This document shows, piece by piece, positions 4,590 to 40,818 of a stretch of 53,062 nucleotides of DNA. Under the pieces are notes generated by a model. That model saw only the letters and a list, made by a program, of their open reading frames with translations, was not told where the DNA came from and did not search any database. The position numbers were made by a program, and so were the translations under genes. Each line of letters opens with the position of its first letter. Position 1 is the first letter of the stretch. Source of the DNA: a virus; IMG/VR virus record IMGVR_UViG_3300005253_000551, positions 1-53,062 of that record. One strand, given 5' to 3'.

Positions 4590-4823
4590 ATGCACGCTGC
4601 TTACACACACCACGCTGTCAGTGAGAACGGGACCGCACACCGCGTCACAATCGTACGCCCAGATGGGAAGGTGCTGCACCTAGAGCTGACCGGCGACCGT
4701 CTCTATTACTCAGGGGACGCCCCCCGCGATGACTTGTTGGATGTGCTGCACACGCTTCCTGGTGGCCTAGCTTGGGAGTTCAGCGCACGCCCTCGATACC
4801 CTACGACGACAGCGATACACTAA
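4590..4823 (+). CDS. Hypothetical protein
   Basis: A 77-residue protein. The start at 4590 follows CACGGAG with good spacing; an ATG at 4545 lacks a site. The sequence has a histidine-rich N-terminus (MHAAYTHHAVSENG) and a short beta-rich core (RVTIVRPDGKVLHLELTGDRLYYSG). It is probably a small single-domain phage protein of unknown role, and it is the first gene behind the promoter-like element at 4517. Confidence 0.55.
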   Translation: MHAAYTHHAVSENGTAHRVTIVRPDGKVLHLELTGDRLYYSGDAPRDDLLDVLHTLPGGLAWEFSARPRYPTTTAIH

Positions 4824-4908
4824 CCCCATCCCCGAGCTTGTGACTGCGGTCGCAGGCTCCCCGGAGAGGGCCAGCATTTCGCTGCCCACACAACACGGAG
4901 GAGAGATC

Positions 4909-5568: not shown

Positions 5569-5581
5569 CGATCCGGCCTCA

Positions 5582-5622
5582 AGCCCCCGGGCTCGGCTCC
5601 ACACGACGCCGGGCCCGGGGCT
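5582..5622 (+). terminator. GC-rich hairpin after 5568
   Basis: The two arms AGCCCCCGGGCTCGGC (5582-5597) and GCCGGGCCCGGGGCT (5608-5622) are complementary apart from one bulge and a G-T pair, with a 10-base loop, 13 bases after a stop codon. No strong T-run follows, as is common for hairpins in high-GC genomes, so it may slow or stabilise rather than fully terminate. Confidence 0.55.
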
Positions 5623-5716
5623 CTCTTGAAGAGACAATGATCGGCACTCTTCTTGCATAGCGACGGCGCCCGTGCCATCCTAGCGTTGCCCGGAGTGGTG
5701 GACGGATCTAGAGTCA

Positions 5717-5759
5717 GTCTGGTTGTCCCGTCACCGCGTGGTGGGTTCGAGGACCAGAC
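5717..5759 (+). other. Nested dyad upstream of DUF5678-like gene
   Basis: GTCTGGT at 5717-5723 pairs with ACCAGAC at 5753-5759 and encloses a second hairpin, CACC-GCGT-GGTG at 5732-5743. It lies in the 240 bases between the hairpin at 5582 and the ATG at 5809. It looks like a structured leader. The same stretch is open in the frame of the downstream gene, so it could instead be coding if that gene starts at the TTG at 5653. Confidence 0.35.
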
Positions 5760-5808
5760 CCGTAAGACCCTGCCCCTGGGCTTCATTCGTGGAAGCAAGA
5801 GCAATGCC

Positions 5809-6096
5809 ATGCAAGCCATCGACGTCGAGTTCTACGAGGCCAACCGTGCCAAGCTCCTGAAGTCCTGCCCGGGTAAGTGGGTCGGCATCCAGGCCGGCGT
5901 GCTGATCGGCATCTGGGAGTCGTGTAGCGAAGCCTACGACGACACCGTGCGCCTCTCTGGCTCCGAGGACGTCCACGTTCGCCAGATTGTTCCCAAGGAT
6001 CAGGAGCCGGTCGTGAACATTCCTACCTGCTGGACCCGGCCAGTTCTCAACCTCAACGTTCCCCACGCAGCCTTCAAGCCCATCCCCAGCGCCTGA
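5809..6096 (+). CDS. DUF5678-like small protein
   Basis: A 95-residue protein from the ATG at 5809. The core from FYEANRAKLLKSCPGKWVGI to SCSEAYDDTVRL resembles the DUF5678 pattern: a helix, then GKWVAI-type strand, then a helix holding a regular E/A pattern. The family is small and of unknown function, found in bacteria and phages. The start is uncertain. The frame stays open back to a TTG at 5653 with no ribosome site, while the ATG has only a weak GGAAG. The gene is convergent with the J-domain gene, with a 17-base gap. Confidence 0.5.
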   Translation: MQAIDVEFYEANRAKLLKSCPGKWVGIQAGVLIGIWESCSEAYDDTVRLSGSEDVHVRQIVPKDQEPVVNIPTCWTRPVLNLNVPHAAFKPIPSA

Positions 6097-6113
6097 CGGT
6101 CGACGGACGGCCC

Positions 6114-6752
6114 TCACCGCGTGTGCTGGGTCTCCGGGTGCATCTCCGTCAGCGCCGTGCGGGCGTTGTCCTTGGCCTGATTCAATTCTTTGATGGCCTC
6201 TTCCGTGCCGCCTGCGTCCGGGTGAGCTTTTCTGGCTCGGGTCTTGTAGATCGCGTCCACGTCCGCGAGCGTTGTCGCCTTGGGGTCGACGCCGAAGAAT
6301 TCCCACCACGACACCGTGGTCGTCTGGCCGTTCGCAGGGGGCAGGGCCTTGAAGCCGCTGAACGCCCGCTCGAGGATATCCGTCGCACCGGCGCGCTTGA
6401 TCATCCGCAAGGCTCCGACGGTGAGGCCGCAGGCGCGGATGTTGTCCTTGACGTAGTCCCAGTGGTCGCAGGCGATCACCTGCTGGTTGCCCCGGATCGT
6501 GAAGTACACGGCCACACCCGGGTCCTGGTAGCGCCTGGAGCCGGCGCTGGCGTAGGGAAGCCCGTCATTGCGGGTTGGCACGTTGCTCGAGATCACGACG
6601 TGCGTGGCGTTGAACCGCCGTAGCTCCTCAACGAGGTCGTCGCGCGCCTTGCCGAACTCGGTCTGGTACCGCGCGCTGCTGTGGAATCGGACGCGTGGCC
6701 AGCCGCCGGGCCATTCGAGGGGGTAAGCTGCTGCGGACGCGATGTTGCTCAT
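6114..6752 (-). CDS. J-domain protein with N-terminal phage domain
   Basis: A 212-residue protein. Residues 1-140 form a domain I have seen in phage and prophage J-proteins (WPRVRFHSSARYQTEF, VVISSNVPTRNDGLP, DPGVAVYFTIRG, IACDHWDYVKDNIRA). Residues 147-205 form a J domain (WWEFFGVDPKATTLADVD, then KTRARKAHPDAGGT) with the HPD motif intact, which stimulates the ATPase of host DnaK. It probably recruits host Hsp70 to a phage process. The start at 6752 is set by GGGAGGAG; an ATG at 6767 would contain that site. It is the last gene of the leftward tRNA-rtcB operon. Confidence 0.8.
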   Translation of the reverse strand: MSNIASAAAYPLEWPGGWPRVRFHSSARYQTEFGKARDDLVEELRRFNATHVVISSNVPTRNDGLPYASAGSRRYQDPGVAVYFTIRGNQQVIACDHWDYVKDNIRACGLTVGALRMIKRAGATDILERAFSGFKALPPANGQTTTVSWWEFFGVDPKATTLADVDAIYKTRARKAHPDAGGTEEAIKELNQAKDNARTALTEMHPETQHTR

Positions 6753-17028: not shown

Positions 17029-17647
17029 GGAGCCGGTGCCACTGAATAGCGAAGACGGGAAGCTGCACGTATGGGCGTGCGGCGCCTGCGCCGCCGCGTA
17101 CGGCGGCAAGCTCGCAGAGAAGACCGCGCTTGAGTGCTGCGCAGAGATGCTGTGCGACTGCGGGAAGCCTGTCGATGGGAAGCATTGCACGAGTTGCTAT
17201 GCTTGCAGAGTCAAGACCCAAGATGCCAAAGAGCAGGCCCTCTTCGACAAGGCTGAGAAGATCCCGTGGCGGGAGTACGACGGGGAGATGGTCTACTCTG
17301 ATAGGCAGGAGTTCTATCCGGACGTTGACTCGATGGTAGACGCCGAGGACGACCCGCCGGACGATCCGCCTCGGTGGGCGTGGGCATGCACCTCACTCAA
17401 GCTGAAGTTCAACGCAATGGATCTCGTCAACGGTCAGCTCGAGGCCGACGATCATCATGAAGAGTCGAGGTCATACATCGGTGACAACGACGTGGCTGAA
17501 CTCCAGAAGCTGCTCGACGCATGGTGTGAGAAGCAGACGGTTGAGACCTTCTTTCCTGACTATTCGCGCGTCGTGACCTGCGACGACATCGTGGATGAGC
17601 GGCTGGCCGACCAACATGATGAGGACCCAGTCTCAGAAGGGAAGTGA
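17003..17647 (+). CDS. Cysteine-rich hypothetical protein
   Basis: A 214-residue protein with many cysteines in its first 70 residues (WACGACAAAY, ECCAEMLCDCGKPV, CTSCYACR), arranged as two or three zinc knuckles. The rest is very acidic (DAEDDPPDDPPRW). The start at 17003 has AGGGGAGAGCC. It lies directly before a DNA methylase and is coupled to it by TGATG. Possible partner or nucleic-acid-binding protein. Confidence 0.55.
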   Translation: MSVTLGTHREPVPLNSEDGKLHVWACGACAAAYGGKLAEKTALECCAEMLCDCGKPVDGKHCTSCYACRVKTQDAKEQALFDKAEKIPWREYDGEMVYSDRQEFYPDVDSMVDAEDDPPDDPPRWAWACTSLKLKFNAMDLVNGQLEADDHHEESRSYIGDNDVAELQKLLDAWCEKQTVETFFPDYSRVVTCDDIVDERLADQHDEDPVSEGK

Positions 17648-18504
17648 TGAACGAGAACCCGCGTCCATTCTTGAAGTGGGCTGGTGGCAAGGGCCAGCTC
17701 CTGCCCCGGCTGCTCGCCGAGCTGCCGTCCAACTTTGGTGACTACCACGAACCCTTTCTCGGTGGCGGCGCACTCTTCTTCGCCCTCTGTCGGCAGGGTC
17801 GCATGGCCGGCCGCAAAATCTATCTGAGCGACAGCAATGCAGAGCTGATCACCACCTACAAGGCGATTCGTGACGACGTCGATGGCGTGATCCGCAGGCT
17901 GGAGCCGTTAAAGTACGACGAGGACAAATTCTACGAAGTGCGTGCTATGAACCCGGCCAAGCTCCCGCCGACAGGTGTGGCGGCGCGCATGATCTATCTG
18001 AACCGCACCTGCTTCAACGGGCTCTACCGCGTGAACAAGAGTGGGCGATTTAACACGTCGTGGGGCTGGTACACGGACCCGCTGATCTGTGACGAACCGA
18101 ACCTGCGAGCGGTGTCGGCTGTGCTCGTCGGCGTCGATTTCAGAGCGGGGAGCTTCGAGGCGACGCGCTCCAAGGCAAAGGCCGGGGACCTTGTGTACCT
18201 GGACCCACCCTACCTCCCAGCGTCGGCCACGGCGAACTTCACGTCCTTCACCAACTTGGGGTTCAGCATCAAGGATCACGAGTGGCTTCTCCAGATGTTC
18301 TGGGACATGGCCGGGATAGGAGCTTTTATCCTTCTGTCCAATTCTGACAATGAGTGGGCGCGCGAGCATTACCGGCTCGGCAGTCGGATCATGGAGGTCC
18401 GCGCGCGCCGGAGCATCAACTCGAAGGGCACCAGTCGCGGCAAGGTCAAGGAACTCCTGATCGCCAGCTACCCAGAGGATAAGCAGAGTGCCCTCGCTCT
18501 TTAG
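17647..18504 (+). CDS. dam: D12-class DNA adenine methylase (Dam type)
   Basis: A 285-residue N6-adenine methyltransferase using S-adenosylmethionine. Motifs in order: FLKWAGGKGQLLPRL (SAM-binding start), YHEPFLGGGALFF, YLSDSNAELITTYKAI, the target-recognition region with YLNRTCFNGLYRVNKSG, and the catalytic YLDPPYLP. The length is normal for Dam relatives, which methylate GATC. It may protect phage DNA from restriction or mark it for replication. A second, diverged D12 domain is in the polyprotein at 34213. The start is ATG at 17647; a GTG at 17644 is also open. Confidence 0.92.
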   Translation: MNENPRPFLKWAGGKGQLLPRLLAELPSNFGDYHEPFLGGGALFFALCRQGRMAGRKIYLSDSNAELITTYKAIRDDVDGVIRRLEPLKYDEDKFYEVRAMNPAKLPPTGVAARMIYLNRTCFNGLYRVNKSGRFNTSWGWYTDPLICDEPNLRAVSAVLVGVDFRAGSFEATRSKAKAGDLVYLDPPYLPASATANFTSFTNLGFSIKDHEWLLQMFWDMAGIGAFILLSNSDNEWAREHYRLGSRIMEVRARRSINSKGTSRGKVKELLIASYPEDKQSALAL

Positions 18505-18546: not shown

Positions 18547-19683
18547 ATGAAAATGATCGTCAACCAGAAGGAGCTGTCCAAGGCTCTGACCCGGCTCAAC
18601 CGGATCGCGCCCAAGAAGGATACGATGCCCATCCTGGGGCACGTTCTGTTGAACGGCCTAGTGGGCCATAAGCTGAAAGCTGTCGTCACCAACCTCGAGG
18701 TGTTCAGCGAGATACTTATCGAAGCTACGGGTGCCATCAGCGAGCCCTTGACCGTGGAGGTGCTCAAGTTCAAGAAGATCGTCGCAGCGCTGTCGTCGAA
18801 CGAGTCGGTGTCCTTGGAGCGCGCGGACGTGAAAGAGAAGGATTATCGGGGGATGGAGGAGCACAAGATCAAGCTCATCGTCTCGGGGTTGGACAGCGGG
18901 ACGGCGTACACCTTGCCGGCCGGCGTTGCTGCTGAATTCCCAACGATCAAGACAGTGGGTGGCGAGCCGAAGGAGGTGCCGACCAAGGACCTACTTGCGG
19001 CTCTTCAGGCCACGACTTACGCCATCAGCAATGACGAGTACAGGTACAACATCCACACTCTGAGCTTCGAGCCAGATGGAGATGAGACGATCATCGTGGC
19101 CACTGATGGCCATCGCTTGGCCGCTGCGCGGGTGCCGTTCCGAACATTTGATGGACAGGTTCTCATTCCCAGGGGTATGGCCATAGAACTTGAGAAGATG
19201 CTGCCCCTAGAATCTGATGACGTGTTGGTGTACAACGATGACGGTCACGTCGGGTTCGAGGTCGGCGGTATGATGCTGCACGCGAAGAAGCTCGAAGCAC
19301 AGTACCCGGACTGGCGGCAGATCGTTCCCAAGAATTTCGCTGGCGATTTCACCATTGACTCCCAGGCGCTCTGCGCTGGCGTCAAGCGTATCACGGCATT
19401 GGCTAGCGGGGACATAATCGGAGTGACGATAGTGGCTACCGAAGAAGAGTCCTGCCTCAAGGCCCGCACTGACGGAGTCGATGCGACCGAGCCGATTAAC
19501 ACGACCATCAAGATGCCTGGTGAGTTCGTCGTCCAGAAGCCCTACATCCTGGATGCGGCTAAGGCGCTCGGTCCCGGCCTGCTGCGAATGCAGGTTCCAG
19601 AGAACAACATCTCGGCGGCAAAGATCAGCCGCGCCGACGAGGACGACGGGTCATTCGCAGTGGTGATGGGGATAAGGATCTAG
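18547..19683 (+). CDS. dnaN: DNA polymerase III beta sliding clamp
   Basis: A 378-residue protein of full family length (about 370), with the three-domain clamp layout. Diagnostic segments are MPILGHVLLNG, VTNLEVFSEI, ATDGHRLAAARVP (central domain) and YPDWRQIVPKNF (third domain). It forms a ring around DNA and gives processivity to the polymerase. Phages with their own clamp usually replicate with a bacterial-type polymerase III, but no polymerase or clamp loader is in this window. A strong AAGGGAGG site precedes the start. Confidence 0.92.
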   Translation: MKMIVNQKELSKALTRLNRIAPKKDTMPILGHVLLNGLVGHKLKAVVTNLEVFSEILIEATGAISEPLTVEVLKFKKIVAALSSNESVSLERADVKEKDYRGMEEHKIKLIVSGLDSGTAYTLPAGVAAEFPTIKTVGGEPKEVPTKDLLAALQATTYAISNDEYRYNIHTLSFEPDGDETIIVATDGHRLAAARVPFRTFDGQVLIPRGMAIELEKMLPLESDDVLVYNDDGHVGFEVGGMMLHAKKLEAQYPDWRQIVPKNFAGDFTIDSQALCAGVKRITALASGDIIGVTIVATEEESCLKARTDGVDATEPINTTIKMPGEFVVQKPYILDAAKALGPGLLRMQVPENNISAAKISRADEDDGSFAVVMGIRI

Positions 19684-28208: not shown

Positions 28209-28598
28209 ATGTCTTTACTTGAGACCACACACAACCCGAAGTTGGCGCCGGTGTACGCGCGGCACCGTGTCGTTGAAGGTGCTATCGATACCGGGACCAT
28301 CACCGAAGAGCGGCGTGCGATGAACATGGCGTCGCATTCCCATGCTCACGTCCAGGTCATCCCGACCAACGGTGCCAACCCTGACGTGAAGGTTCTCTTC
28401 TGGTCGGAGGCAGCGAATCGGTTCATCGATCCACATCCGGATCAAGAGATCTCTTTCGGCGGGGCGGGCCCCGACGTCCCGTACGAGTTCACGTTCGAGC
28501 CTCGTGGGCGAAAGATCTTCATCTTTGTGACAGGCACGGTCACTGGCGACGACGTGGTCGAAATCCAGGTCGCTGGGTACAACGTCGAACGGGTCTGA
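28209..28598 (+). CDS. Small probable virion protein
   Basis: A 129-residue protein that is beta-rich, especially in its C-terminal half (SHAHVQVIPTNGANPDVKVL, YEFTFEPRGRKIFIFVTG, DVVEIQVAGYNVERV), consistent with a jelly-roll or Ig-like structural protein. It overlaps the large terminase gene by one base (TGATG). It may be a decoration protein or head fibre subunit. No family recognised. Confidence 0.55.
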   Translation: MSLLETTHNPKLAPVYARHRVVEGAIDTGTITEERRAMNMASHSHAHVQVIPTNGANPDVKVLFWSEAANRFIDPHPDQEISFGGAGPDVPYEFTFEPRGRKIFIFVTGTVTGDDVVEIQVAGYNVERV

Positions 28599-30070
28599 TG
28601 CAGCAGGCGGCGCAAGTCATCCCCCTGTTGCCCGGGGGAGTGCAAGCGCTCGCCAAGGCTGGCCGCGAGCAGCTAATCAATGCTGCGGTCAGTTATAGGC
28701 AAGCCCGCGACGAGTGGCTGCGCCGCGAGATCATCTTCAACAACCGTATCGACCTGCTCGCCAGCGTGGTGCTCGGGTACGTGGTCATGCCCTTCCATGG
28801 CATGATGCTCCGCTGGCAATTCCTGCATCCAGACAACCAGCAGTGGATGTTCCGTGGCGCCGGCAAGACTTCGCTGCTCACGGTGGTGAAGGCGATTCAC
28901 ATTCTGATCAAGAGCCGGGACGTTCGGATCCTCATCGCCAGCAAGACGGTCACCAATGCCGAGGGGTTCCTGAAGGAGATCAAGGCCCACCTCGAGGGCA
29001 CGCCACGGCTCGTCGAGCTGTTCGGGGAGTTCTACGACCCACACCGGGTTGGGAAGTGGGACAACAGGGAGATCGAGGTCGTCGGCCGCAAGACGAAAGC
29101 CAAGGAGGCCAGCATCACGTGTGTCGGTGTCGAGGGGACGGTCGTGTCCAGGCACTACGACGTCCTCATTAGCGACGACATCATCGACGAGGACAACGCC
29201 AGGACGAAGCGCATGCGTGACCTGGTGCAGACTTGGTATTATAAGACCCTCCTGCCGTGTCTCGAACCGCCCAGCGACAAGATCCCACATCGCGGCGAGC
29301 ACCATCGTCACGGGACTCGCTACCATTACGACGACCTGTACGGCCACCTCCAGAAGCACGAGCTGAAAGAGCATACGCAGGTGATCCCGGCCCTGTCAGA
29401 AGACGAGAAGAGCCCATGGCCGGATCATTACCCGGCAGAGCACTTCAAAAAGATCCGGGAGATCTCTGGCACGATTATTTTCAATTGTCAGTATCAGTGT
29501 AACACCGAAGCCATGCGCGGCGAGATCTTCCAGTACGATCACTGCCAACGGATTGAGGACGATGAGATCCCGAAGGGGCTCCCCATATACATGGGGGTTG
29601 ACCTGGCGATTTCCAAGAAAGAGACCTCGGACCTGACCACTATCGTCGTGATCTCTGTGGACGACGTCGACAACTACTACGTGATCGACTACTTCGAGGG
29701 CCACCTTCGGTTCTCGGAGCAGACGGCGGCGGTCAAGAGACTCTATAAGCAGCACGACCCGGTCCGCGTTGCTATCGAGACCAATGCCTACCAGGACGCA
29801 CAGTACCAGCACCTCAAAGATGGAGACCGCGAGCTGCGCCTCATAGGGGTCCGCCAGGACAAAGACAAGATCACCCGGGCTCATAAATTGTCTGCGTTGT
29901 TCGAGGCCAAGCGCATGTTCTTCCGCGCCAGCACGTTCAAGCTGATCGACCAACTTGTGGGATTCCCCGAGCACCGCTACGATGATGGCTTCGATGGTCT
30001 CGACTTGGCGATCAGGGCGAGCCGCCGGCGTCGCAAGTCAAAGCGGACCGTCGTCCCCGGACTGATGTAG
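28598..30070 (+). CDS. terL: Terminase large subunit
   Basis: A 490-residue packaging motor. The ATPase domain has a Walker A-type FRGAGKTSLLTVVKA near residue 86, and a Walker B-like YDVLISDDIIDEDN near 190. The C-terminal nuclease domain has GVDLAISKKETSDLTTIVVI near 333 (first catalytic Asp), an IETNAYQDAQYQHL segment near 396 and YDDGFDGLDLAIRA near 465 (late Asp). It cuts and translocates phage DNA into the procapsid through the portal. The length is normal for the family. Confidence 0.92.
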   Translation: MQQAAQVIPLLPGGVQALAKAGREQLINAAVSYRQARDEWLRREIIFNNRIDLLASVVLGYVVMPFHGMMLRWQFLHPDNQQWMFRGAGKTSLLTVVKAIHILIKSRDVRILIASKTVTNAEGFLKEIKAHLEGTPRLVELFGEFYDPHRVGKWDNREIEVVGRKTKAKEASITCVGVEGTVVSRHYDVLISDDIIDEDNARTKRMRDLVQTWYYKTLLPCLEPPSDKIPHRGEHHRHGTRYHYDDLYGHLQKHELKEHTQVIPALSEDEKSPWPDHYPAEHFKKIREISGTIIFNCQYQCNTEAMRGEIFQYDHCQRIEDDEIPKGLPIYMGVDLAISKKETSDLTTIVVISVDDVDNYYVIDYFEGHLRFSEQTAAVKRLYKQHDPVRVAIETNAYQDAQYQHLKDGDRELRLIGVRQDKDKITRAHKLSALFEAKRMFFRASTFKLIDQLVGFPEHRYDDGFDGLDLAIRASRRRRKSKRTVVPGLM

Positions 30071-30080
30071 GAGAGGCACC

Positions 30081-31853
30081 ATGTCAGAACAGAAAGCAAT
30101 CAATTTGGTGAAGTCGGCGGAGTCCGGCAACAAGACCAATCGGCGTGCCGTCCGCGCTATTGTGTTCGGCGCCGGCCGCGACAAGACCCCCGTCGCCAAG
30201 CTGCACGATGGCAAGGAAATCGGTCGCTCGCACGAGCTTCCGGAAGATCCGCTCGAGTCGCTGTCGTCGCAGGGAAGGATCCATGAGCCACCTTTTGACC
30301 TGCTGACGCTGGCGATGCTGCCGGAACACAGCACCGAGCTGGGCCCGGTCCTCGAAGCCATGGAGGTCAACATAGAAGGCTTCGGCCATCGATTCGTTCC
30401 CCGCATCGACATGGACAAGGCCGACGACGAGACTAAGACGGCCGTCAGGAAGGAGCACACATTCCTTACCAATTTCTTTGCTCACGCATCGTTGCGCGAC
30501 TCGTTCACGGCGACGCGGCGGAAGCTCAGACGCGACCACGAGGGCATCGGCAACTCGTACTACGAGGTGATCAGGAGTGCGACTGGTGAGATCCACGGTC
30601 TCAACCACCTCCCCGGCTACCAAATGCGCCTGGGGGTCATGGACCAAGACCAGATCAAGGTGGTTGTCCCGATCCTAGAACTCCAGGAGGACGGCAGCGT
30701 CAAGGTCGTGAACATTTCCACATGGCAGAGGTTCCGCAGGTTCGTGCAGAGCCGAACCGTCCAGCGTCAGAACCTGTCATTCGTGGGCACTGGCAAGCTG
30801 CGGTGGTTCAAGGAATTCGGCGATCCCAGAGTCTACGACCAGGACACCGGGGACGAGGTCACTGGCAAGGACCTGGCGACATTCCCGGAGGAGAAGCGTG
30901 CGAACGAGGTGGTGCATTTCCGCATCTACTCGCCGCGGACGCCGTATGGCCTGCCACGGTTCATCGGCAACCTGCTGAGCATCTTCGGGGACCGGGCCGC
31001 GGAGGAGATCAACTTCACGACGTTCACGAACAACAACGTGCCTAGTTCGATGATCCTGGTCTCGAACGGTCAGCTCACCGACGACACCATTGCGCGCATC
31101 AAGGAGTTCATGGAGAGCCTGCAGTCATCGGACAACCGCTCCAAGATGCTACTCATCGAGGCGGAGAGCGCTGATCAGACCGATGTCGGGGAGGACGGTG
31201 GGCACGTGAAGATCGAAGTCGTACCGATGACTGATTCGCAGCAAAAGGATGCGATGTTCCTGAACTATCAGGACAAGAACAAGGACAATATCCGTCGCTC
31301 GTGGCGCATCCCGCCCATATTTCTAGGGAAAAGCCAGGATTTCACGAAGGCCACGGCGGATGCAAGCCGCAAGCTTGCTGACGAGCAGGTGTTCGCTCCG
31401 GAGCGCGATGAGGTCGACGCCTTCGTCAACCGCCGGCTGTTCCCGTCCATGGGGATCATCTACCACCGCTTCAAGTCCAACAGTCCGAACACCACGGACA
31501 ACACCGAGCTGGTGAAGCTCGTGGCCAACGCCGAGAAGACGGGCGGCATGACGCCGAGGATTGCCCGGGTAATCCTGGAAGACATCCTTGGGCTGGAGTT
31601 GCCGGCGTTCCCGAAGGACTTCAACCCCGACGTCCCGTTCTCATTGACGATGGCGGAGGCCGTCAAGAACATGGCCGATCCCACGGAGCCTGGGCAGCAG
31701 GTGACCGCGCTCAAGACTCTCGACTTTATTGAGAAGCTGACGGGAGGAGATCTCTCCGACGAGCAGGAAGAACAGGCGGTCGGTGTCGCCTTGTCGCTCC
31801 AGCGCTACTTCGAGATGAAGTCCAACCAGAGCGCCAGCAGCCCGGGGATCTGA
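30081..31853 (+). CDS. Portal protein
   Basis: A 590-residue portal of the PBSX/HK97-like group. Typical segments are a core beginning near residue 150 (GNSYYEVIRSATGEIHGLNH), YSPRTPYGLPRFIGNLLSIF, and the stem/crown part DKNKDNIRRSWRIPPIFLG with ADASRKLADEQVFAPERD. It forms the dodecameric ring through which DNA enters and leaves. The N-terminal 90 residues are less conserved. GTAGGAGAGGCACC precedes the start. Confidence 0.9.
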   Translation: MSEQKAINLVKSAESGNKTNRRAVRAIVFGAGRDKTPVAKLHDGKEIGRSHELPEDPLESLSSQGRIHEPPFDLLTLAMLPEHSTELGPVLEAMEVNIEGFGHRFVPRIDMDKADDETKTAVRKEHTFLTNFFAHASLRDSFTATRRKLRRDHEGIGNSYYEVIRSATGEIHGLNHLPGYQMRLGVMDQDQIKVVVPILELQEDGSVKVVNISTWQRFRRFVQSRTVQRQNLSFVGTGKLRWFKEFGDPRVYDQDTGDEVTGKDLATFPEEKRANEVVHFRIYSPRTPYGLPRFIGNLLSIFGDRAAEEINFTTFTNNNVPSSMILVSNGQLTDDTIARIKEFMESLQSSDNRSKMLLIEAESADQTDVGEDGGHVKIEVVPMTDSQQKDAMFLNYQDKNKDNIRRSWRIPPIFLGKSQDFTKATADASRKLADEQVFAPERDEVDAFVNRRLFPSMGIIYHRFKSNSPNTTDNTELVKLVANAEKTGGMTPRIARVILEDILGLELPAFPKDFNPDVPFSLTMAEAVKNMADPTEPGQQVTALKTLDFIEKLTGGDLSDEQEEQAVGVALSLQRYFEMKSNQSASSPGI

Positions 31854-31856: not shown

Positions 31857-33851
31857 ATGCCGGAGGTGTTGGCGCTCTACGACGTCGGGCTCGTAGCCAC
31901 CGATGCGGTCCTTGCCAAGGCGCTGGGATTGCCGGAGACGACCCAGATCGCGCGTAGGGAGTCACGTCTGCGGGTCTTCATGCTGCGCGCGTGGGACAAC
32001 CGTTCCGGGCCGGCCGTGACGGCAGGCGCTGTAGTCGCTACACGCGGGGGCACAGCCAAGGCAGTCGAGGCGGCTGTCGATAAGGCCATGCAACCCTGGG
32101 TGAACGACGTGAACCCGCGGATGGCGAGCGCCGTCGAGGACATCTACCGCCTAGCCCGCACGGCTGGCTGGCGAAAGGGGACTGGGCAGACAACGGCAGC
32201 GCTGACTTACGATACGCCGAACCTGACAGAGGTGCTCAAGGCGGCACCGCGAACCGGATTCTCTGTACTGCCGGCCTTCGATCTCGTGGACGAGGAGGCG
32301 GTGGATGCGCTACGGGGGCACCAGGTGTTCTGGATCGGCGACCACTACGACGAGAATATCTCCAAGGCCGTCGCCAACTCAGCGCGGGAAGCCATTGTCG
32401 AAGCTGGCCAGGACAGGGCGAAGGCTGGCCAACTCGTAAAGAAGGCGCTCGAGGCGGAGCTTGGGCGGGTCGTAACGCCGGGCGGATTCCACGGATCGGC
32501 GGCTCAATACTTCGAGGGTCTAGCGGCTAACGCCGCAACCGTGTCACGTGCTCACGGACAAATGAGTTCGTTCATGCGGATCGGGGCTACCACTTTCACC
32601 ATAACCAATCCTAATGACAGTCGCACTTGTCCTATCTGCTCTCACATGGATGGGAAGGTATTCACCGTGCAGCAAGGCGCAGAGCAGATGAGCAAAGAGC
32701 TGGCTGCGAAGTCGCCCGACGATATCAAGAAGGTCCACCCGTGGATCGGCGTGCCGAAAATGAAGGCGCTCTCGCCGACCCCGGGCGTGAAGGGCTCTAA
32801 GGGGCAGTCGGATAAGTTGGCGAAAGCTGGGTTCTCAATGCCTCCATTTCATTTTCGCTGTCGGGATACCGTCGACATCACGGAAGACGAGACGTTCGGT
32901 GAGCCACTAATTCCGCCGACACCCACGAAGCCGGTAGCTGTTCCTGGGGCTGTGCCGGGTGCTAAGCCACATCCAGACGACAAGATCCTTGCTGGCTTGC
33001 TGAACTCGGTGCCGAAGTCGACGACCGCTTTAGGAGAAGGTGTGAACCAAGCCAAGGTATTGAATTCGGTGACACCAGACGGTCGCAAGATTCGTTCGGT
33101 GTGGAAGTCTGTGGATACTGAGAAGGATCTTCTACGCACGGGTATTGATGCCGGGAGTTATCACTCGCGAGATGCAGCTGTGTATCAGCTAGATCGTCTG
33201 CTTGGGGGTGAGACTGTGGTGCCCCCAACTATCTCGCGCGATCTGGGCGGCAAGTTCGGACGTGGCTCGATGCAGCATTTTAAGTCTGGCGCTGTCACCA
33301 ACAGGAAGGTCAACCTCCAGGGGTTGAAGGCTAGCGACCCTACATTACGGCGCACAACGCTTCTGGATTACATCAGCGCCAACGATGACCGGCACGGGAA
33401 CAACGTGATGTACACGTTCTCGGGCAGCTCGAATAAGCCCAAGGCGTTGAAGCTCGTAGCCATCGACAACGGTCTCAGCTTTCCTAAAGGCCCGCCAGCG
33501 AGATACATCTTCCCGACCAACAACCACAGCTTGAAGCCCGACCTTCTGACGCTCAACGCAGGCCAGAGACGATGGGTCAAAGAAATGTCCTTGGATCGCG
33601 TTGCTGAGATTCTCAACGAGTCTGGCAACATCCCGAAGCCCGCCATCCGATCGACACTCGTACGGATCCGATCTTTGCAGAAGGACCCCAAAGTGATCAA
33701 GAAGATACTTGATGCCAAGATCATCGACCTCGACAACGCGGACTTGGACAACCCGGTGTTGGACTGGATGACTCGATCTAGCGAAGCACCTGGGTCTCTT
33801 CTGGATTCAGCAGAGCTTAGCAAGATTGACAAAATCATTGACAAGCTGTAG
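31857..33851 (+). CDS. MuF head protein fused to a PI3/4-kinase-like (SCO1664-type) domain
   Basis: A 664-residue two-part protein. Residues 1-340 are a phage Mu gpF/SPP1 gp7-type minor head protein, with TITNPNDSRTCPICSHMDGK and HFRCRDTVDI as the metal-binding end. Residues 405-600 look like the PI3/4-kinase-like SCO1664 group: IRSVWKSVD (possible nucleotide Lys), SRDAAVYQLDRLLG with VVPPT, ISANDDRHGNN (catalytic loop) and AIDNGLSFP (metal-binding Asp). The MuF part would place it in the capsid and allow injection. The second half appears richer in A/T at silent sites, hinting at later acquisition. Fused MuF proteins are known toxin carriers. Confidence 0.8.
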   Translation: MPEVLALYDVGLVATDAVLAKALGLPETTQIARRESRLRVFMLRAWDNRSGPAVTAGAVVATRGGTAKAVEAAVDKAMQPWVNDVNPRMASAVEDIYRLARTAGWRKGTGQTTAALTYDTPNLTEVLKAAPRTGFSVLPAFDLVDEEAVDALRGHQVFWIGDHYDENISKAVANSAREAIVEAGQDRAKAGQLVKKALEAELGRVVTPGGFHGSAAQYFEGLAANAATVSRAHGQMSSFMRIGATTFTITNPNDSRTCPICSHMDGKVFTVQQGAEQMSKELAAKSPDDIKKVHPWIGVPKMKALSPTPGVKGSKGQSDKLAKAGFSMPPFHFRCRDTVDITEDETFGEPLIPPTPTKPVAVPGAVPGAKPHPDDKILAGLLNSVPKSTTALGEGVNQAKVLNSVTPDGRKIRSVWKSVDTEKDLLRTGIDAGSYHSRDAAVYQLDRLLGGETVVPPTISRDLGGKFGRGSMQHFKSGAVTNRKVNLQGLKASDPTLRRTTLLDYISANDDRHGNNVMYTFSGSSNKPKALKLVAIDNGLSFPKGPPARYIFPTNNHSLKPDLLTLNAGQRRWVKEMSLDRVAEILNESGNIPKPAIRSTLVRIRSLQKDPKVIKKILDAKIIDLDNADLDNPVLDWMTRSSEAPGSLLDSAELSKIDKIIDKL

Positions 33852-33876: not shown

Positions 33877-34125
33877 ATGAGGCTCCAGATATCCCAGACA
33901 GATCGTGACACGAACAAAGCTGATACGCTTGTCGTCTTCACTCTTGAGGGCGATGTCATCGCAGCGGACTGGAAGCCCGATTCAGAGGACTTTCAGTCCG
34001 ATCTTGAACGTGACGGCATTGTGACTGCGCGCGGGTTGTTCAGGCCGTCTGACGGCAAGGACTTCTTGGACAATCTTGAGCTAGCTTTCTCCAACTCCAG
34101 CAACATAATCGTAAAGACTCTGTAG
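33877..34125 (+). CDS. Small protein, possible immunity partner
   Basis: An 82-residue acidic protein immediately after the MuF-kinase gene. A beta-rich N-terminal half (ADTLVVFTLEGDVIAADWKP) is followed by a helix (DFLDNLELAFSNSS). In MuF polymorphic toxins the immunity gene lies directly downstream, and this gene has that position, size and charge. It has GTAGGAGATCGC upstream. The role is inferred from position only. It could alternatively be a minor virion protein. Confidence 0.5.
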   Translation: MRLQISQTDRDTNKADTLVVFTLEGDVIAADWKPDSEDFQSDLERDGIVTARGLFRPSDGKDFLDNLELAFSNSSNIIVKTL

Positions 34126-34212
34126 CCACATCCCCCGGGATTAGGCTCTTGTCGGCAGGCGTCCTGTCGGCTCGCTCTTGTGTCGCTCATCGGAGTGCGA
34201 TACCAGAGACTT

Positions 34213-37200
34213 ATGAGTAGACGCACAAGACGACGGGCAGCCCCCATCTCCGAACGGGAGGGTATGAACGTCGTGCCGGTCCAGAAGTCGGCCCTGGCGG
34301 TCGCCGATCCGGAGGTCGTCGTCGAGAAGGCCCCGCTGTCGACCGCGACGATCAACAACCTGCCGGACGCTGCCTTCGCTCTGATCAAGCCGGGAGGCAA
34401 AAAGGATGAGGACGGCAAGACGGTCCCGAGATCGTTGCGGGTCCTGCCCCATCACAAGGGGAGCGTCAGCAGGGGGTCCGAGAATACATCGCTCGATCTC
34501 CCCCGGCTGCGGAATGCGCTCGCCCGCTTGAGCCAGACGGACCTCACCGAGTCGCAGATGGAGGAGGCCCGCGCCCACCTCAACAGCCATGCCGATGAGG
34601 TGCTCCCGTCTCGGCAAGACAAGCCGGCGGAGAAGGCGATTGGTTCCCCATCCCTCGACGATGGCGGGAAGTTGAAGCCGGCTCAGACCGGCGGCCCCGG
34701 CCTGCTCGCTGGCGAGCCCAGAGCGAAGATTCCCCCGATCGAGGACCATTCCGGCCTGCCCACGCGGGGGGTCATCGTGTCCCCGCCGGCGTTGGCGAAG
34801 GCTGTCCTGGACGGGAAGAAGACGATGATCGTCAAGGCGGTCAACATGCCTATCGGCGGGCAGAGCTTGCTTCTGCTGTCGGAACAGAAAGCTATCGGAG
34901 TTGTGACGCTTGGCAAGGCACAGAAGATCACGGTGAAGCGACTCGCCGCTCTTGAATCCGAGCACCTCCTGACAAAGGACATCCTCGATGAGCGGGTCAG
35001 GATGCAGAAGGGCTGGGACAAGGGGCCGTTCTACGCTTACCCCGTCATCGACGTTGGCGTCGTGAAGACAATCTGGAGTTCGCCAGCGGGCAAGAAGAAG
35101 ATCGCCAACCGCCTCGTGGCGATGCTCCCCGAGCATACGACATACGTGGAGCCGTTCGCTGGCAGCGCCGCCGTCTTCTTCGCCAAGAAGCCGGTCAAGA
35201 CTGAGGTTCTTAACGACGCCGATCCCGACGTCGCTCAGGCGTACAAGCTCATCAAGAGCATGAACGATAAGCAGATCGAGAAGCTGAAGAAGATGAACTG
35301 GGTCGGCAGCAAGTCCGCCTACCTGAAGGTGTACGACTCGAAGCCGAGCAAGGACATCGAGAAGCTGTACCGCTTCCTGTACATGACGCACTTCTCGTAC
35401 GGCCGGCTTCGGACTCGGAGCTTCAACCCCGGGGCCGACGGGGTACCAGCGCGGACTGCGGATCGCCTAGCGACCTTCGGGCCTCGGCTCCGCAACGTCA
35501 AGCTCTACAGCGGTGACTACGCCGAGGTGATCAAGAAGTACGACAGCAAGGACACCGTCTTCTTCCTCGACCCTCCTTACGCTGGCTACAACGTCAACGT
35601 CGGCGAGAAGACGTTCAAGGAGGAAGAGTTCGTCGGCATCCTGAAATCGCTCAAAGGGAAGTTCCTGCTGACCTACGGAGTCCGCGGGAAGCTCCCTGGG
35701 CTGGTTAAGAAGGCCGGCTTCAAGATTAAGAGGATCCGCACTCCCCGGACCATGCGGAACATGCGCGGCGTCGGCGGGTCGGCGTTCCTGACGCAGATCA
35801 TCGTCGCCAACTACGACTTCGAAAAGAATGCCAAGAGCGTCGAGGAGAAGGAGAAGGCCGAGAAGGCGGAGGCCGCCGGCGGGGTCCCCATCTCCAAGAT
35901 CAAGAACGTCGACACCTACGACCCCAAGAAGAGCAGCAACGCCGTGCTGAAAGACGACTTCCGCACGCTGATGGCGTGGGCGGTCTCGCAGAAAGCCGAC
36001 CCTAAGAGGTTCAAGCATAGCGTCAAGGTGATCGAGGGCTTGCTGGCCAAGCTGCTCAAGGAGGCTGCCGAGCGCGGCCCCAAGGTCATCCAGTTCAATC
36101 CGCGCGGGTTGCGGCCCGGGCCGCGGGAGGTATTTCTCCGTGTGGCCGACCAGGTTGGGCTGCCTAAGGAGATGGTCAAGCGCTTCTCGCTTGGCAAGGA
36201 CACCGATCCAGAAGACCTGACCGGCACCGAACTTACCAAAGCCCACGCCATGCTCCACGACATGCAGCGCACTGAGACGGTTGTAGAGAAGTCGTCGAAG
36301 AGCTGGAGCACGGAGAGCATCACGAACATGCACGCGCGTGTCGTCGACGAGATGGCTGTGCGGAAGATGGAGCACCCGGCGCCGCCAAGCGACGGCCTTG
36401 ACCAGACCTCAGTGGATTTCGAGACCACAAAGGTGTGGGACGGAGTCGAGAAGCTGGCACCCAAGCAAGAGCCTCAGAAGCTGGACAACAAGCGCGCCAA
36501 TCTAAGGTCGGCGTTGAAGGACAACCCAGGAGAGCGGTGCAAGCTCTGCCAGTATTTCCAGAAGCCAACTGCATGCGCTGTCGTTGTGGGCCCCGTCAGC
36601 GAGGACCAGGTGTGCGACTGGATTCAGAGCCGTGAGGTCGAAGGCGCCCCGAGCTACCAGGTCGATGACAAGGATTGGCTGAGCTTCGTAGCCGGCATGG
36701 AGAAGGACCAACCATATCAGCACAAGGTCATTGACGGGGCGCTGACTCCGGAGGGGCCTCTGGTTCTCATCGAGGACACTGCGGAGCCGCCGCACCGATT
36801 CAGCCTGAGCAAAGAATTCCACATCGGTCACACCAGCCTGGAGCACCACTGGACCCAGGCGGAGGTGGATCGCTTGGTTGCCGTCGGCAAGAAGGCGGTC
36901 GTCAAGATCGAGAAGCAGGGGTCTATTGCTGAGCCGGTACCAGGCGCGCAGTTCGTTGGAGGCGAAGTAGCCGGAGACCAATTAGCCGAGATGGAAGCGC
37001 ATGGCTCTCCCGACGGGCTTTCCGACGAGGTGACGACGTCCAGCCCTGTGGATAAGGCGGACAAGCAGGCCGACCCGTTCATTGAGACCCCCGACGAGGA
37101 CAAGACTCATAGTTACGTCGTCCAGAACCACTGGCGCGGTAAGAGCGTGCACGCCGACTTCCGCGTCGAGATGCGCGACGGCAAGTTGCTGGTGGGGTTC

Positions 37201-38616
37201 ACGATGAACACCCAGATCGCTGGCGTGGTGGATGAGGCGGTCGTCACGCTCGACCAAGCCCAGGCGTGGACCAAGCGCATGGACGAGTTGAGTAAGATCG
37301 ATTGGCGCGACGGAGAGTGGGCCCTGCGATCCAAGCCCGGGGCAGATAAGCCTGTCCGCACCAGCATCCAGTCGGAGCGCAAGCAGGCGCACCCGTTCGC
37401 GTGGATAGACGTCGAGGGCAAGACCAAGGACACGGAGGAGGGCAAGCCCCCAGCGCCTGGGGCCACAGCCGAGTTCCCGGGCGTCTTCCACATCGTCGAC
37501 CAGGGTGAGATTGAGTTCGGTGTCCAGAAGCCGTGGTTCCACGAGTATTTCGTTCGCGGCAACGGCATGAACTACCGCCTGATGTTCCGCCAGCTCACCC
37601 TCGGCAGGCTTGAGAAAGCGCGGCACTCCTACACTCACTGCATGCGCTGTGAGAAGGCAGCTCCCAAAGTGGACGTGTTGTGGGCCGACGGTCGTGGGCG
37701 CGCGTGGTTCTGCTCCAAGTGCCTAAAGGCTTGGAAGAAGGAAGCTGGCAAGGCTGCCGAGATCGTCGGGACGAAGCAAATCGTTGGACCAAAAGCGCCG
37801 TCGAATTTCAACGACGTCCACAAGTCCGCGGTGCCGTCCATGACGGCCGAGGTCCATCCGGCGATAATCGAGATCCTCAAGCAGCGCGCACTCCCCCCAT
37901 CGAAGCCGCAGGGCGAGACGGGGTTCGCGGGTGAGCCTGCTTGGCTGGCCATTCAACCGGACGACATGACTCCGAACGTTCTTAGTAATGACGCAGTCAA
38001 GAAGCGGTTCGTCCCGCCCCTGGGCAAGTCAGCTCTGCCGAAAGCCGTCCGGGTACAAGTCCCAGAAGAGTTCCGCTACTGGACAAAGAGCACCACGGTT
38101 GATGCCGTGAAGACACGCAACGCTCTGGTGAAGGCGATGAAGAGTGGAGACGTGGACATTGACGTCGGCGCGCCGTTCAAGGTTCGCAAGGCAACCGTGG
38201 AGGATGCCGACTTCCAGCTAATCGCCGAAAAGGGTGATTTCCAGATAATCGTTCAAAAGCTTGACAAGGACAGACGCCTCGTGACAGGAGTAGTTCTTGA
38301 ACCAGGGGAGGTTGATGCACAGGGAGACACGGTATCGGAAGAGGTGATTGAGAATGCAGCCGGAGATTTCCTCTCAAATTTCAACTTGGAGACCGAGCTG
38401 GGCCTCATGCACAAGGCCTTCGGTGACATCGGGTTGGAACTCCGTGAATCGTGGATCGCGCCGCAGTCGATGAAGATAGGTGGACAGAAGGTCAAGAAGG
38501 GCACTTGGATAATGAAGATGAAGGTCGTCAAGGACAAGTTGTGGGATGCGGTGAAGGCCGGGAAGATCACCGGCTTCAGCATCGGCGGCGTGGCGACGAC
38601 CAAGCCCAAGGACTAG
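34213..38616 (+). CDS. Capsid protease polyprotein: D12 methylase, LigD-type phosphoesterase and XkdF-type protease
   Basis: About 1467 residues. Approximate order: 45-125 a phage domain (LPDAAFALIKPGG to RNALARLSQTDL); 283-535 a D12 adenine methylase (TIWSSPAGKKKIANRL, VEPFAGSAAVFF, FFLDPPYAGYN); 775-795 a CKLCQYF-type cysteine site; 965-1125 a LigD-like 3'-phosphoesterase (YVVQNHWRGKSVHADFRVE); 1142-1170 a CMRC/CSKC zinc site; 1333-1466 an XkdF-type protease (VVLEPGEVDAQGDTVSEEV, LGLMHKAFGD). Such proteases mature procapsids, so the other domains are probably packaged and cut free. The start is uncertain (34180 GTG, 34213 ATG or 34264 ATG). Confidence 0.75.
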   Translation: MSRRTRRRAAPISEREGMNVVPVQKSALAVADPEVVVEKAPLSTATINNLPDAAFALIKPGGKKDEDGKTVPRSLRVLPHHKGSVSRGSENTSLDLPRLRNALARLSQTDLTESQMEEARAHLNSHADEVLPSRQDKPAEKAIGSPSLDDGGKLKPAQTGGPGLLAGEPRAKIPPIEDHSGLPTRGVIVSPPALAKAVLDGKKTMIVKAVNMPIGGQSLLLLSEQKAIGVVTLGKAQKITVKRLAALESEHLLTKDILDERVRMQKGWDKGPFYAYPVIDVGVVKTIWSSPAGKKKIANRLVAMLPEHTTYVEPFAGSAAVFFAKKPVKTEVLNDADPDVAQAYKLIKSMNDKQIEKLKKMNWVGSKSAYLKVYDSKPSKDIEKLYRFLYMTHFSYGRLRTRSFNPGADGVPARTADRLATFGPRLRNVKLYSGDYAEVIKKYDSKDTVFFLDPPYAGYNVNVGEKTFKEEEFVGILKSLKGKFLLTYGVRGKLPGLVKKAGFKIKRIRTPRTMRNMRGVGGSAFLTQIIVANYDFEKNAKSVEEKEKAEKAEAAGGVPISKIKNVDTYDPKKSSNAVLKDDFRTLMAWAVSQKADPKRFKHSVKVIEGLLAKLLKEAAERGPKVIQFNPRGLRPGPREVFLRVADQVGLPKEMVKRFSLGKDTDPEDLTGTELTKAHAMLHDMQRTETVVEKSSKSWSTESITNMHARVVDEMAVRKMEHPAPPSDGLDQTSVDFETTKVWDGVEKLAPKQEPQKLDNKRANLRSALKDNPGERCKLCQYFQKPTACAVVVGPVSEDQVCDWIQSREVEGAPSYQVDDKDWLSFVAGMEKDQPYQHKVIDGALTPEGPLVLIEDTAEPPHRFSLSKEFHIGHTSLEHHWTQAEVDRLVAVGKKAVVKIEKQGSIAEPVPGAQFVGGEVAGDQLAEMEAHGSPDGLSDEVTTSSPVDKADKQADPFIETPDEDKTHSYVVQNHWRGKSVHADFRVEMRDGKLLVGFTMNTQIAGVVDEAVVTLDQAQAWTKRMDELSKIDWRDGEWALRSKPGADKPVRTSIQSERKQAHPFAWIDVEGKTKDTEEGKPPAPGATAEFPGVFHIVDQGEIEFGVQKPWFHEYFVRGNGMNYRLMFRQLTLGRLEKARHSYTHCMRCEKAAPKVDVLWADGRGRAWFCSKCLKAWKKEAGKAAEIVGTKQIVGPKAPSNFNDVHKSAVPSMTAEVHPAIIEILKQRALPPSKPQGETGFAGEPAWLAIQPDDMTPNVLSNDAVKKRFVPPLGKSALPKAVRVQVPEEFRYWTKSTTVDAVKTRNALVKAMKSGDVDIDVGAPFKVRKATVEDADFQLIAEKGDFQIIVQKLDKDRRLVTGVVLEPGEVDAQGDTVSEEVIENAAGDFLSNFNLETELGLMHKAFGDIGLELRESWIAPQSMKIGGQKVKKGTWIMKMKVVKDKLWDAVKAGKITGFSIGGVATTKPKD

Positions 38617-38619: not shown

Positions 38620-39534
38620 ATGTCCGCGAAAGAGGAGCTGGACCAGGCGCGTGAACTGATAGGCTTGAAAGTGAAAGAGGTCAGTGCGGTCGACCGAGCC
38701 GCCAACAAGAGAACGTTCCTTGTAATCAAAAGACGGGAGGAAGACGGCATGAGCATCTTCGACAATGACCTAGGTGATGAGGGCTTCGAGATCGTCAAGC
38801 AGGAAGAGGAGGAGGAGGAGGAAGAGGAGGAGGGGAAGAAGAAGGCCGCTGATGATCCGGCAGCACTCACGAAGACCATGATGGGCTTCATGAAGAAGGC
38901 CATGACCGCTGCCGGCGTCGACAAGGATGAGATGACCAAGGCCCTGGAGGCCATGGAGAAGCTCACCGATTCTGTCTCCAAGGCGGGGCACGATGACGAC
39001 GAGGAAGAGGAAAAGGACGACGACGAGAAGAAGCAGAAGGCTCGCGGTGAGGACGACGAGGAGAACGATGACGGGAAGCCGTTCGGGAACAAGTCCAAGG
39101 AGACCAAGTCCGCGGACCAGCCCATCCTCAAGATCAACACTGACGGCAGCATCGAGCTGTCCAGTGAGATCACAAAGGGCCGCGTTGCGGGCGCCAGGAG
39201 CATCAAAAAGGTCTTGCAGCTCTTCGGGCATACGGCTGCCATTCTCAAGGAAGCCGACCCAGTCGTCTTCGAGAAGGCCCTCAAGGCGCTCGCGAAGGGT
39301 GACCTGCCGAAGGACCCGGGCTTCCCTAGCCAGGTCCGTCCGACCGAGCCGGAGGTGGCCAAGTCCGTCGGTGATCAGATTACCGCAGCGGTCACCAAGG
39401 CGATGGCTCCGGTGAACGAGAAGCTGGAGAAGATCGAGAAGACTCGCGGCGGATCGGCTTCGCTCGAAGACGGCGGCGGGACTGAGACCAAGGTTGAGAA
39501 AGGTGCTGGCATCTGGAGCGGTCTTCTCCACTAG
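38620..39534 (+). CDS. Probable scaffold protein
   Basis: A 304-residue, extremely acidic protein with long Glu and Asp runs (residues 62-71, and around 125-150) and coiled-coil parts. Its N-terminus (LKVKEVSAVDRAANKRTFLV then IKR) is typical of the end of phage protease regions (EVS-l-VDrPAn-k-xfl-x-K). Together with the position between protease and capsid, this fits a scaffold that is cleaved during head maturation. It begins 3 bases after the polyprotein stop. Confidence 0.65.
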   Translation: MSAKEELDQARELIGLKVKEVSAVDRAANKRTFLVIKRREEDGMSIFDNDLGDEGFEIVKQEEEEEEEEEEGKKKAADDPAALTKTMMGFMKKAMTAAGVDKDEMTKALEAMEKLTDSVSKAGHDDDEEEEKDDDEKKQKARGEDDEENDDGKPFGNKSKETKSADQPILKINTDGSIELSSEITKGRVAGARSIKKVLQLFGHTAAILKEADPVVFEKALKALAKGDLPKDPGFPSQVRPTEPEVAKSVGDQITAAVTKAMAPVNEKLEKIEKTRGGSASLEDGGGTETKVEKGAGIWSGLLH

Positions 39535-39624: not shown

Positions 39625-40818
39625 ATGCCAATCAGCAACGAAGAACTGGTCAGAAAGGCAGTCATCACCACCGATGCGCTAGCTGCCCAGGGGAAGCTCA
39701 ACACGGCGCAGTCGGATGCATTCATCGACTTCGTCATCAACGAGACGGTCCTCAAAGACCATGCTCGGGTGGTGAAGTTCCGCAACGAAGACCTGGACAT
39801 CGACAAGATCGGTGTTGGGGCGCGCGTTGCGATGCCGAAGGTCGAGGCGCAGGACCCCGGCATCCGGCGCGGGATCAACACCTCCAAGGTCACCCTCCGG
39901 CCGGAAGAGATCATCGTTCCATTCGAGATCGGTGACGTCTTCAAGGAGGTCAACATCGAGGGCTCAAATGTCGAGGAGCGGATCATCCGCATGATGGCGA
40001 CGCAGCTCGCCAACGACCTCGAAGAGCTGTACATCCTCGGCGACAAGCTCGGCCCGGCAATCACGCCGGAGAACTTCTTCGGCCAGGGATCAAGCACCGA
40101 CTTCCGCAAGGACACCTACCTGGCGCTCTTCGACGGTTGGTCCCGCTTGGGCGATAGCGCCAACGTGGTCGATGCTGAGGGCTCGAACATCGGCCTCAAC
40201 ATCTTCGGCAGGATGCTGCGGGCGATGCCGACCAAGTTCCGCCGGAACAAGGAAATGCTCCGGTTCTACTTGTCGCCAGACCTGTGGCAGCTCTTCGAGG
40301 AGAAGCTGGCCACCCGCGCGACCAAGCTCGGTGACGACGCGGCGGCTGGCGGCTCTCTCGGGCCGTTCGGTGTACGGGCTGTCCCAATCCCGCTGTGGGA
40401 CCTCCAGCCCCTGGCCGTGGAGCACATCGTGCTCACCGCCCTTCTTGCGACCTCGTTGCGGTCCACTGGCGTCACCAACGTCGTGGTGAACAACGACACT
40501 CTTGGTGCCACCGCCGAGACCCCATTCATCGAGGATACCGATTACATCCTCGATGCTGCGGCCGGGACCATCGCTCGTAAATCGGGCTCGGCTATCGGCG
40601 ACGGTGACACTGTGAAGGTGACGTACAACGCCTCACCCCAGATCCTCCTGACCCACCGGATGAACTTCATCGTCGGTATCGGTCGCGACATCCGGATTGA
40701 GAAGGACCGGGACATCTTCAAAGGCGTCAATCAGTACGCCATCACTGCGAAGGTGTCGGTCGAGTTCGAGGAGGACGAAGCCCTCGTCAAGGCCAAGAAC
40801 CTGGGAACTGACATCTAG
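39625..40818 (+). CDS. Major capsid protein
   Basis: A 397-residue protein of the HK97-fold capsid type. Segments include KFRNEDLDIDKIGVGARVAM, TLRPEEIIVPFEIGDVF (E-loop and P-domain-like), ERIIRMMATQLANDLEELYI (spine helix), MLRAMPTKFRRNKEMLRFYL, and a C-terminal ILLTHRMNFIVGIGRDIRIE then VSVEFEEDEALVKAKNL (late strands). The order scaffold, capsid, connectors and the strong leader agree with this. The closest subfamily was not identified. Confidence 0.85.
   Translation: MPISNEELVRKAVITTDALAAQGKLNTAQSDAFIDFVINETVLKDHARVVKFRNEDLDIDKIGVGARVAMPKVEAQDPGIRRGINTSKVTLRPEEIIVPFEIGDVFKEVNIEGSNVEERIIRMMATQLANDLEELYILGDKLGPAITPENFFGQGSSTDFRKDTYLALFDGWSRLGDSANVVDAEGSNIGLNIFGRMLRAMPTKFRRNKEMLRFYLSPDLWQLFEEKLATRATKLGDDAAAGGSLGPFGVRAVPIPLWDLQPLAVEHIVLTALLATSLRSTGVTNVVVNNDTLGATAETPFIEDTDYILDAAAGTIARKSGSAIGDGDTVKVTYNASPQILLTHRMNFIVGIGRDIRIEKDRDIFKGVNQYAITAKVSVEFEEDEALVKAKNLGTDI

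Follow-up and report, generated by a model that had tools for sequence, protein, structure and literature searches.

A giant phage head-gene protein that joins a D12 adenine methylase and a LigD-type phosphoesterase domain to a capsid maturation protease

Why would a phage attach a DNA methylase and a DNA-end-processing domain to the protease that matures its capsid? The question is raised by a giant open reading frame on the plus strand, like its modules, the neighbouring head genes, and the second methylase gene described below, at 34213..38616 of a 53,062-nucleotide stretch of viral DNA (IMG/VR record IMGVR_UViG_3300005253_000551), which we call the window and which sits within a 62,943-base virus record. 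The frame is free of stop codons from 34126 to 38613 and comprises 1467 codons counted from the ATG at 34213. Its start is uncertain (GTG 34180, ATG 34213, or GTG 34273): the ATG has no Shine-Dalgarno sequence, whereas GTG 34273 has a GGAGG eight bases upstream at good spacing, so that translation may in fact begin some 20 codons downstream of the ATG. The encoded protein of about 160 kDa contains a D12 adenine methylase, a HiPIP-like cysteine motif, a LigD-type phosphoesterase (PE), a zinc-finger-like cysteine cluster, and a C-terminal XkdF protease. A single frame of this length with several domains had been proposed in an initial annotation made from the sequence by eye, and the same open frame is present in independent contigs.

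The gene is part of the head gene cluster. Upstream are the terminase large subunit (28598-30070), the portal (30081-31853), the minor head protein MuF, whose C-terminus is kinase-like (31857-33851), and a small ORF (33877-34125) between MuF and the giant ORF. The scaffold (38620-39534; phrog_3017, C-terminal part) and the major capsid protein (39625-40818; phrog_1623) are encoded directly downstream, as had been annotated, in the same order as in the relatives. The C-terminal stretch of the MuF protein resembles PI3/PI4 kinases with an E-value of 7e-6, just below the Pfam cut-off; MuF is possibly a second multi-domain head protein. Elsewhere in the window, an IS1595-family (ISXO2-like) transposase gene is located within the virus genome (20693-21790).

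Of the modules ahead of the cysteine sites, only the methylase has a library match. The first module is common to the relatives (34750..35064; own HMM, E 4e-55) and ASCH-like by eye only, as library searches gave no family. It is followed by a D12-class N6-adenine methylase domain (35056..35835), found with our own HMM and with Pfam (PF02086, E 2e-22; MethyltransfD12 at aa 293-459, 80.5 bits versus a curated cut-off of 22). The domain contains the LDPPY motif, so that the D12 assignment with its DPPY site holds well above the curated threshold. Against the Dam subfamily TIGR00571 it scores 81.3 bits, below the curated 114.85 bits, and its target site is not predictable. Two small conserved modules, HEL and HPAPP (35920..36432), were delineated with own HMMs and have no library match; these names, as well as ASCH and WLAI, are labels coined in this analysis, and Pfam detected no helicase family in the giant protein. 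Matches to AAA_33, TfoX_C, and ketosteroid isomerase were all below threshold and were taken as chance. A second, separate D12 methylase (17644..18504; Pfam E 1e-49), which is 25% identical to the fused one, adjoins the DNA polymerase III beta-clamp gene (18547-19683). All other modules of the giant protein are closest to those of the relative L021 (55-76% identity), while the fused D12 is 54% identical to the D12 of L016/L007 and 42% to that of L021, in which the D12 position differs. Judged by these identities, the D12 looks swapped relative to the nearest relative. Such turnover would be expected of exchangeable, possibly counter-defence cargo on a carrier.

Both cysteine sites recognised by eye have found some counterpart. 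The first, a HiPIP-like four-cysteine motif (C776..C803; 36538..36621), matches the HiPIP-type PioC with an E-value of 8.5e-4 and was found in the window copy only, among the large frames searched. The second, a CxxC...CxxC cluster directly after the PE domain (about aa 1131-1196; 37603..37800), is RING/treble-clef-like according to a weak fold match (Z about 5), and L021 has one too.

The LigD-like 3'-phosphoesterase had also been called by eye. Sequence searches of Pfam, NCBIfam, and the PDB with this region (aa 945-1130; domain PE1, 37060..37620) gave no true match, including none to Pfam LigD_N. The domain was recognised through its predicted fold, its conserved residues, and a distant relative. 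An AlphaFold model of aa 945-1336, computed from a 14-sequence alignment of viral relatives and having a pLDDT of about 85-94 in the PE part, best matches the archaeal LigD-PE structure 3p43 (Foldseek E 9e-6, Z 16.0, rmsd 1.8 Å, 123 residues). Further matches are 3n9b (Z 13.4), 3p4h, 3n9d, 5dmp, and 2lj6; the strong PDB matches are LigD 3'-phosphoesterases only, and the next unrelated structure has a Z of 5. In the relative L121, Pfam LigD_N independently covers the PE domain, although below threshold (E 0.003, 18.3 bits versus a cut-off of 31.1). In LigD, manganese is held by His42, His48, and Asp50, supported by Gln40, and Arg52, His84, and Tyr88 are located at the phosphate (PMC8656161). 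PE1 has a conserved Q-x-H-x6-H-x-D-x-R motif, which includes the H-x6-H-x-D-x-R read by eye. Across 41 family sequences, each of its H, H, D, and R positions is 95-98% conserved, with the spacing between the two histidines being one residue longer than in LigD. Equivalents of the sulfate/phosphate-binding His84 and Tyr88 are not evident in the consensus of the same 41 sequences. According to the model, the PE of the window is a LigD-PE fold with its metal site, and the by-eye call is supported by fold and metal ligands alike. Enzymatic activity of PE1 is predicted but not assured because the His84/Tyr88 equivalents could not be traced. PE1 is nearly always followed by a conserved "AWLAI...SALPKAVR" module (37918..38178).

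The C-terminal assignment is the most straightforward one. The XkdF-family capsid maturation protease (38215..38610; Pfam PF14550, E 7e-28) covers aa 1346-1463 with 97.5 bits versus a cut-off of 24 for Peptidase_S78_2/XkdF, in agreement with the initial annotation. The catalytic histidine and serine are kept at 99% and 100%, respectively, in 72 sequences, and the pair looks intact in the window. No other XkdF-type protease was found in the window. A separate small protease that may be produced from an internal start was considered but seems less likely, since there is no Shine-Dalgarno-backed start beyond aa 888 of the giant protein. A capsid maturation protease must be inside the procapsid to work. 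Therefore, the protein fused N-terminally to the only XkdF found must either enter the procapsid too or be cut off at assembly. A [VILM]-x-K-[AS] motif occurs 87 times in linkers versus 42 times in shuffled linkers, a twofold excess, but was set aside as cleavage-site motif because it is also frequent inside domains.

Since the first scans had been seeded with the giant protein, the major capsid protein served as the seed of a second survey. In the capsid-seeded survey, the slot before the scaffold is most often occupied by a bare protease of 148-275 aa. All scans combined gave 72 distinct proteases: 36 are small and complete, 26 are large and complete (459-1784 aa), and 10 are cut by contig ends. 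Beside the window copy there are 25 distinct large slot proteins, with shuffled modules. On a protease tree built on 132 columns the small/large label needs 2 changes, versus 23.6 with shuffled labels, and the enlarged forms cluster. Because of this distribution, the enlarged protease is, as far as the tree tells, old and stably kept, with a single origin not proven.

Relatives of the giant protein were found at 15 and then 36 loci in viral contig scans and at 7 loci in genome bins, with both archaeal and bacterial labels; several contigs recur between the scans, and the counts depend on seeds and contig ends. All except the archaeal virus ANMV-1 come from metagenomes or genome bins. Wherever the flanks are readable, the order in the protease-fused clade is TerL-portal-MuF-giant-scaffold-capsid. 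Within the proteins, for which architectures were assigned with an own HMM for each module, the modules appear in shuffled order: D12 methylases in one or two copies, methylases of a second type, PE1, another domain with the PE fold (PE2), and XkdF. Many relatives contain an ATP-dependent DNA ligase, with Pfam E-values as low as 7e-23; also found among the relatives are a nucleotidyltransferase called by motif only, 2H phosphoesterase modules, a C5 methylase end or fragment (L004), and a TGT-family transglycosylase (phrog_887) that we read as DpdA-like. The model of PE2 (pLDDT 90) matches 3p43 with a Z of 16.6. Although the models of both PE domains match LigD-PE, the HMM-HMM comparison of PE1 with PE2 is not significant (probability 6%), and in the protease-fused group PE2 has lost the first histidine. 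By its module content, the family seems to point to DNA protection and mending or counter-defence.

The window protein has neither ligase nor nucleotidyltransferase nor PE2 module. As these modules occur among its relatives, the DNA-end-processing domain is a remnant or reduced form of a LigD-like ligase and PE arrangement. Neither another ATP ligase nor Ku was found in the 63-kb record; Ku was also not found in 18 records, most of which may be incomplete. PE1 and AWLAI are retained where ligase, nucleotidyltransferase, and PE2 are lost, although seeding with PE1 accounts in part for its occurrence in most loci. In L008 the motif I lysine of the ligase is replaced by arginine, and L133 combines D12 and protease without a PE.

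Several relatives show further peculiarities. In L136 (3767-8995), an intein with a LAGLIDADG endonuclease (aa about 396-746) is located in the ligase module directly after the motif I KYDG; a place in a conserved active site is typical of inteins in DNA enzymes. Terminase and portal genes of related viruses also contain intein-like inserts, each about 310 aa long (L021:641-3205 and 3209-6115; L095:2808-5324; L039:1873-4662). The giant protein of L030 (6224-11422) has, by eye, an apparent metallo-beta-lactamase-fold module (HAHPDH). Two adjacent genes encode the giant protein in L035 (4289-7486 and 7877-11770), L033, L055, and L056, so that its N-terminal modules are separated from the ligase/PE modules.

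A sister group, comprising L037, L038, L040, and L030, has a giant protein whose last module is PE2; a separate protease-scaffold gene comes directly after it. Because this group and ANMV-1 have the unfused form, the protease fusion is a feature of one group, while a close link with head assembly extends further. The protease fusion is therefore not required for the function of the giant protein.

Taken together, we favour, with a probability of roughly 0.58, that the giant protein belongs to the polyvalent kind, as a cargo polyprotein that is packaged in the head, cleaves itself, and both protects and mends DNA at entry. Packaging, self-cleavage, injection, and action on the incoming DNA are what we infer from the architecture. 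The enlarged protease would double as a cargo polyprotein made with the other head genes, and the need for the C-terminal XkdF would carry it into the procapsid. There, the protease would cut itself free and release the N-terminal enzyme modules inside the head, and these modules would accompany the DNA when the next host is entered. The adenine methylase would mark the incoming DNA against restriction, and the LigD-type PE, together with the ligase in those relatives that have one, would heal 3' ends at nicks or breaks. This reading is supported by the fixed slot, the fusion of the only XkdF found, the age of the enlargement, the module content, the turnover of the methylase, the polyvalent precedent, and the L136 intein. 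Against it stand the unfused sister group, the untraced His84/Tyr88 and the altered ligase motif I in L008, and the size of the protein, which at about 160 kDa per copy is bulky for the interior of a head. In addition, a sealing partner for the PE of the window is not known, given that the protein lacks a ligase module and that neither an ATP ligase nor Ku was found in the 63-kb record. The proposed repair of broken ends, as part of the initial annotation, is thus plausible for the relatives with a ligase beside the PE but fits the window less well. It is possible, but rather doubtful, that the virions carry a complete LigD-like end-joining kit (ligase, two PEs, and nucleotidyltransferase) plus DNA modifiers as one self-cleaving, protease-fused protein, by which a genome that host defences nick or cut at entry would be masked and resealed at once, before viral genes are expressed.

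The modules might also be fused for co-expression only. In this case, activation of the protease would split them off, and they would modify and repair DNA late in the producing cell, before or during packaging, without being delivered to the next host. A methylase acting at the packaging stage would protect the progeny as well, the neighbouring MuF, portal, and terminase genes suggest that the packaging site is near, and the sister-group protein is made beside the protease without being fused to it. However, it is hard to see why a cytoplasmic enzyme would be fused to a protease of the closed procapsid, and why the position next to the capsid would be kept across the clade. Replicating DNA could already be modified by the separate D12 beside the clamp gene. 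We therefore regard co-expression as the sole purpose as unlikely.

The PE-AWLAI core could instead have a structural or targeting role in the head, for example in docking at procapsid entry. It would then derive from LigD-PE but be non-enzymatic, with only the accessory modules being enzymes. The persistence of PE1 and AWLAI after the loss of ligase, nucleotidyltransferase, and PE2 in the window would fit this, as would the decaying ligase of L008, the lost first histidine of PE2 in the protease-fused group, and the missing His84/Tyr88 equivalents. But the prevalence of PE1 is in part due to the seeding, L133 demonstrates that a PE is not obligatory for the slot, and a mere structural part would not need the metal ligands H, H, D, and R that PE1 keeps almost invariantly. 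A purely structural role is thus improbable. That the giant frame is an assembly artefact or a read-through of several genes, as its unusual length and the separate library names for its separate parts might suggest, is practically refuted by the 26 complete large forms, which are free of internal stops and come from independent contigs such as L021 (PE 69% and protease 76% identical), so that chance and chimerism are excluded.

In this virus and in a wide group of uncultured relatives, the capsid protease forms the end of a giant protein with DNA-modifying and DNA-end-healing modules, which suggests that the virus may load a kit for protecting and repairing DNA into its head. If this is true, phages load enzymes into the head by fusing them to a protease that is bound to go there, and the injected payload can include DNA repair, beyond DNA modification. 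The many natural module combinations of the relatives would then help to ask which activities are important when the genome enters, and would offer a ready design for packaging proteins. The architecture would also account for misleading database names such as "ATP-dependent DNA ligase" on parts of the family.

This name is carried by the ANMV-1 protein (AJP62006.1, KP703175; 866 aa), which has the same NTase-ligase-PE1-AWLAI-PE2 architecture but neither methylase nor fused protease. Among 50,697 phage records, only ANMV-1 contains the PE1 and ligase modules; its ligase goes unmentioned in the paper on this virus.

LigD combines the ligase, the 3'-phosphoesterase, and the polymerase of Ku-dependent end joining. 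Bacterial and archaeal LigD share with the giant proteins the PE fold and the metal residues, and the relatives add an ATP-dependent ligase in one polypeptide. Unlike LigD, the giant proteins are fused to a capsid protease and to DNA-modifying enzymes, no LigD-type polymerase module was seen in them, and the PE of the window has no ligase. Small XkdF proteases such as gp048 of the Pakpunavirus PaP1 and XkdF of PBSX belong to the same protease family and have the same position among the head genes. PaP1 gp048 (L137:5917-6387) is named "DNA methyltransferase", a name that has spread through Pakpunavirus records and looks like an annotation error, because the protein is an XkdF-type protease of 156 aa with nothing attached; PaP1-like phages were accordingly rejected as a ready methylase-protease fusion. 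The nearest cultivable analogue found is a Gordonia phage protein annotated as capsid maturation protease (Twonlo gp15, 950 aa; GTE6; Tiamoceli), which is encoded between MuF and capsid and has a 2H phosphoesterase domain, but has no Pfam match to D12, XkdF, or LigD_N and no match to the PE1 or ligase modules. In open-licence papers, we found no report of a capsid protease fused to a methyltransferase, ligase, or phosphoesterase.

The closest precedent in concept is the polyvalent proteins (Iyer et al. 2017; PMC5512222), multi-enzyme phage proteins that are thought to be injected. According to that survey, P1 DarB is a head protein with a protective effect on DNA in cis, P1 DdrB undergoes cleavage ahead of packaging, and a minority has a C-terminal assembly-type peptidase, with assemblin-like peptidases at C-termini. 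Polyvalent proteins are likewise very large, are found in terminase-portal phages, and contain DNA methylase, 2H phosphoesterase, and nucleotidyltransferase domains. The window protein resembles them in uniting several biochemically unlike domains, in being encoded among the head genes of a terminase-portal phage, and in holding a processing peptidase. However, this peptidase is XkdF and not one of the zincin or assemblin-like types described there, the methylase is a D12 and not the EcoKI/TaqI-like type joined to a SWI2/SNF2 ATPase, which prevails in phages although it is not obligatory, and the window protein is itself the capsid maturation protease. The same text names no XkdF protease, LigD phosphoesterase, or ATP-dependent DNA ligase; "ligase" appears three times, in the passages listed for RNA ligases. 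It describes archaea as poor in polyvalent proteins, whereas ANMV-1 would extend multi-enzyme head proteins to an archaeal virus. The initial statement that no characterised system has this composition thus applies to the combination and not to the general idea, which is known from the polyvalent proteins and from the Gordonia capsid protease with its 2H domain.
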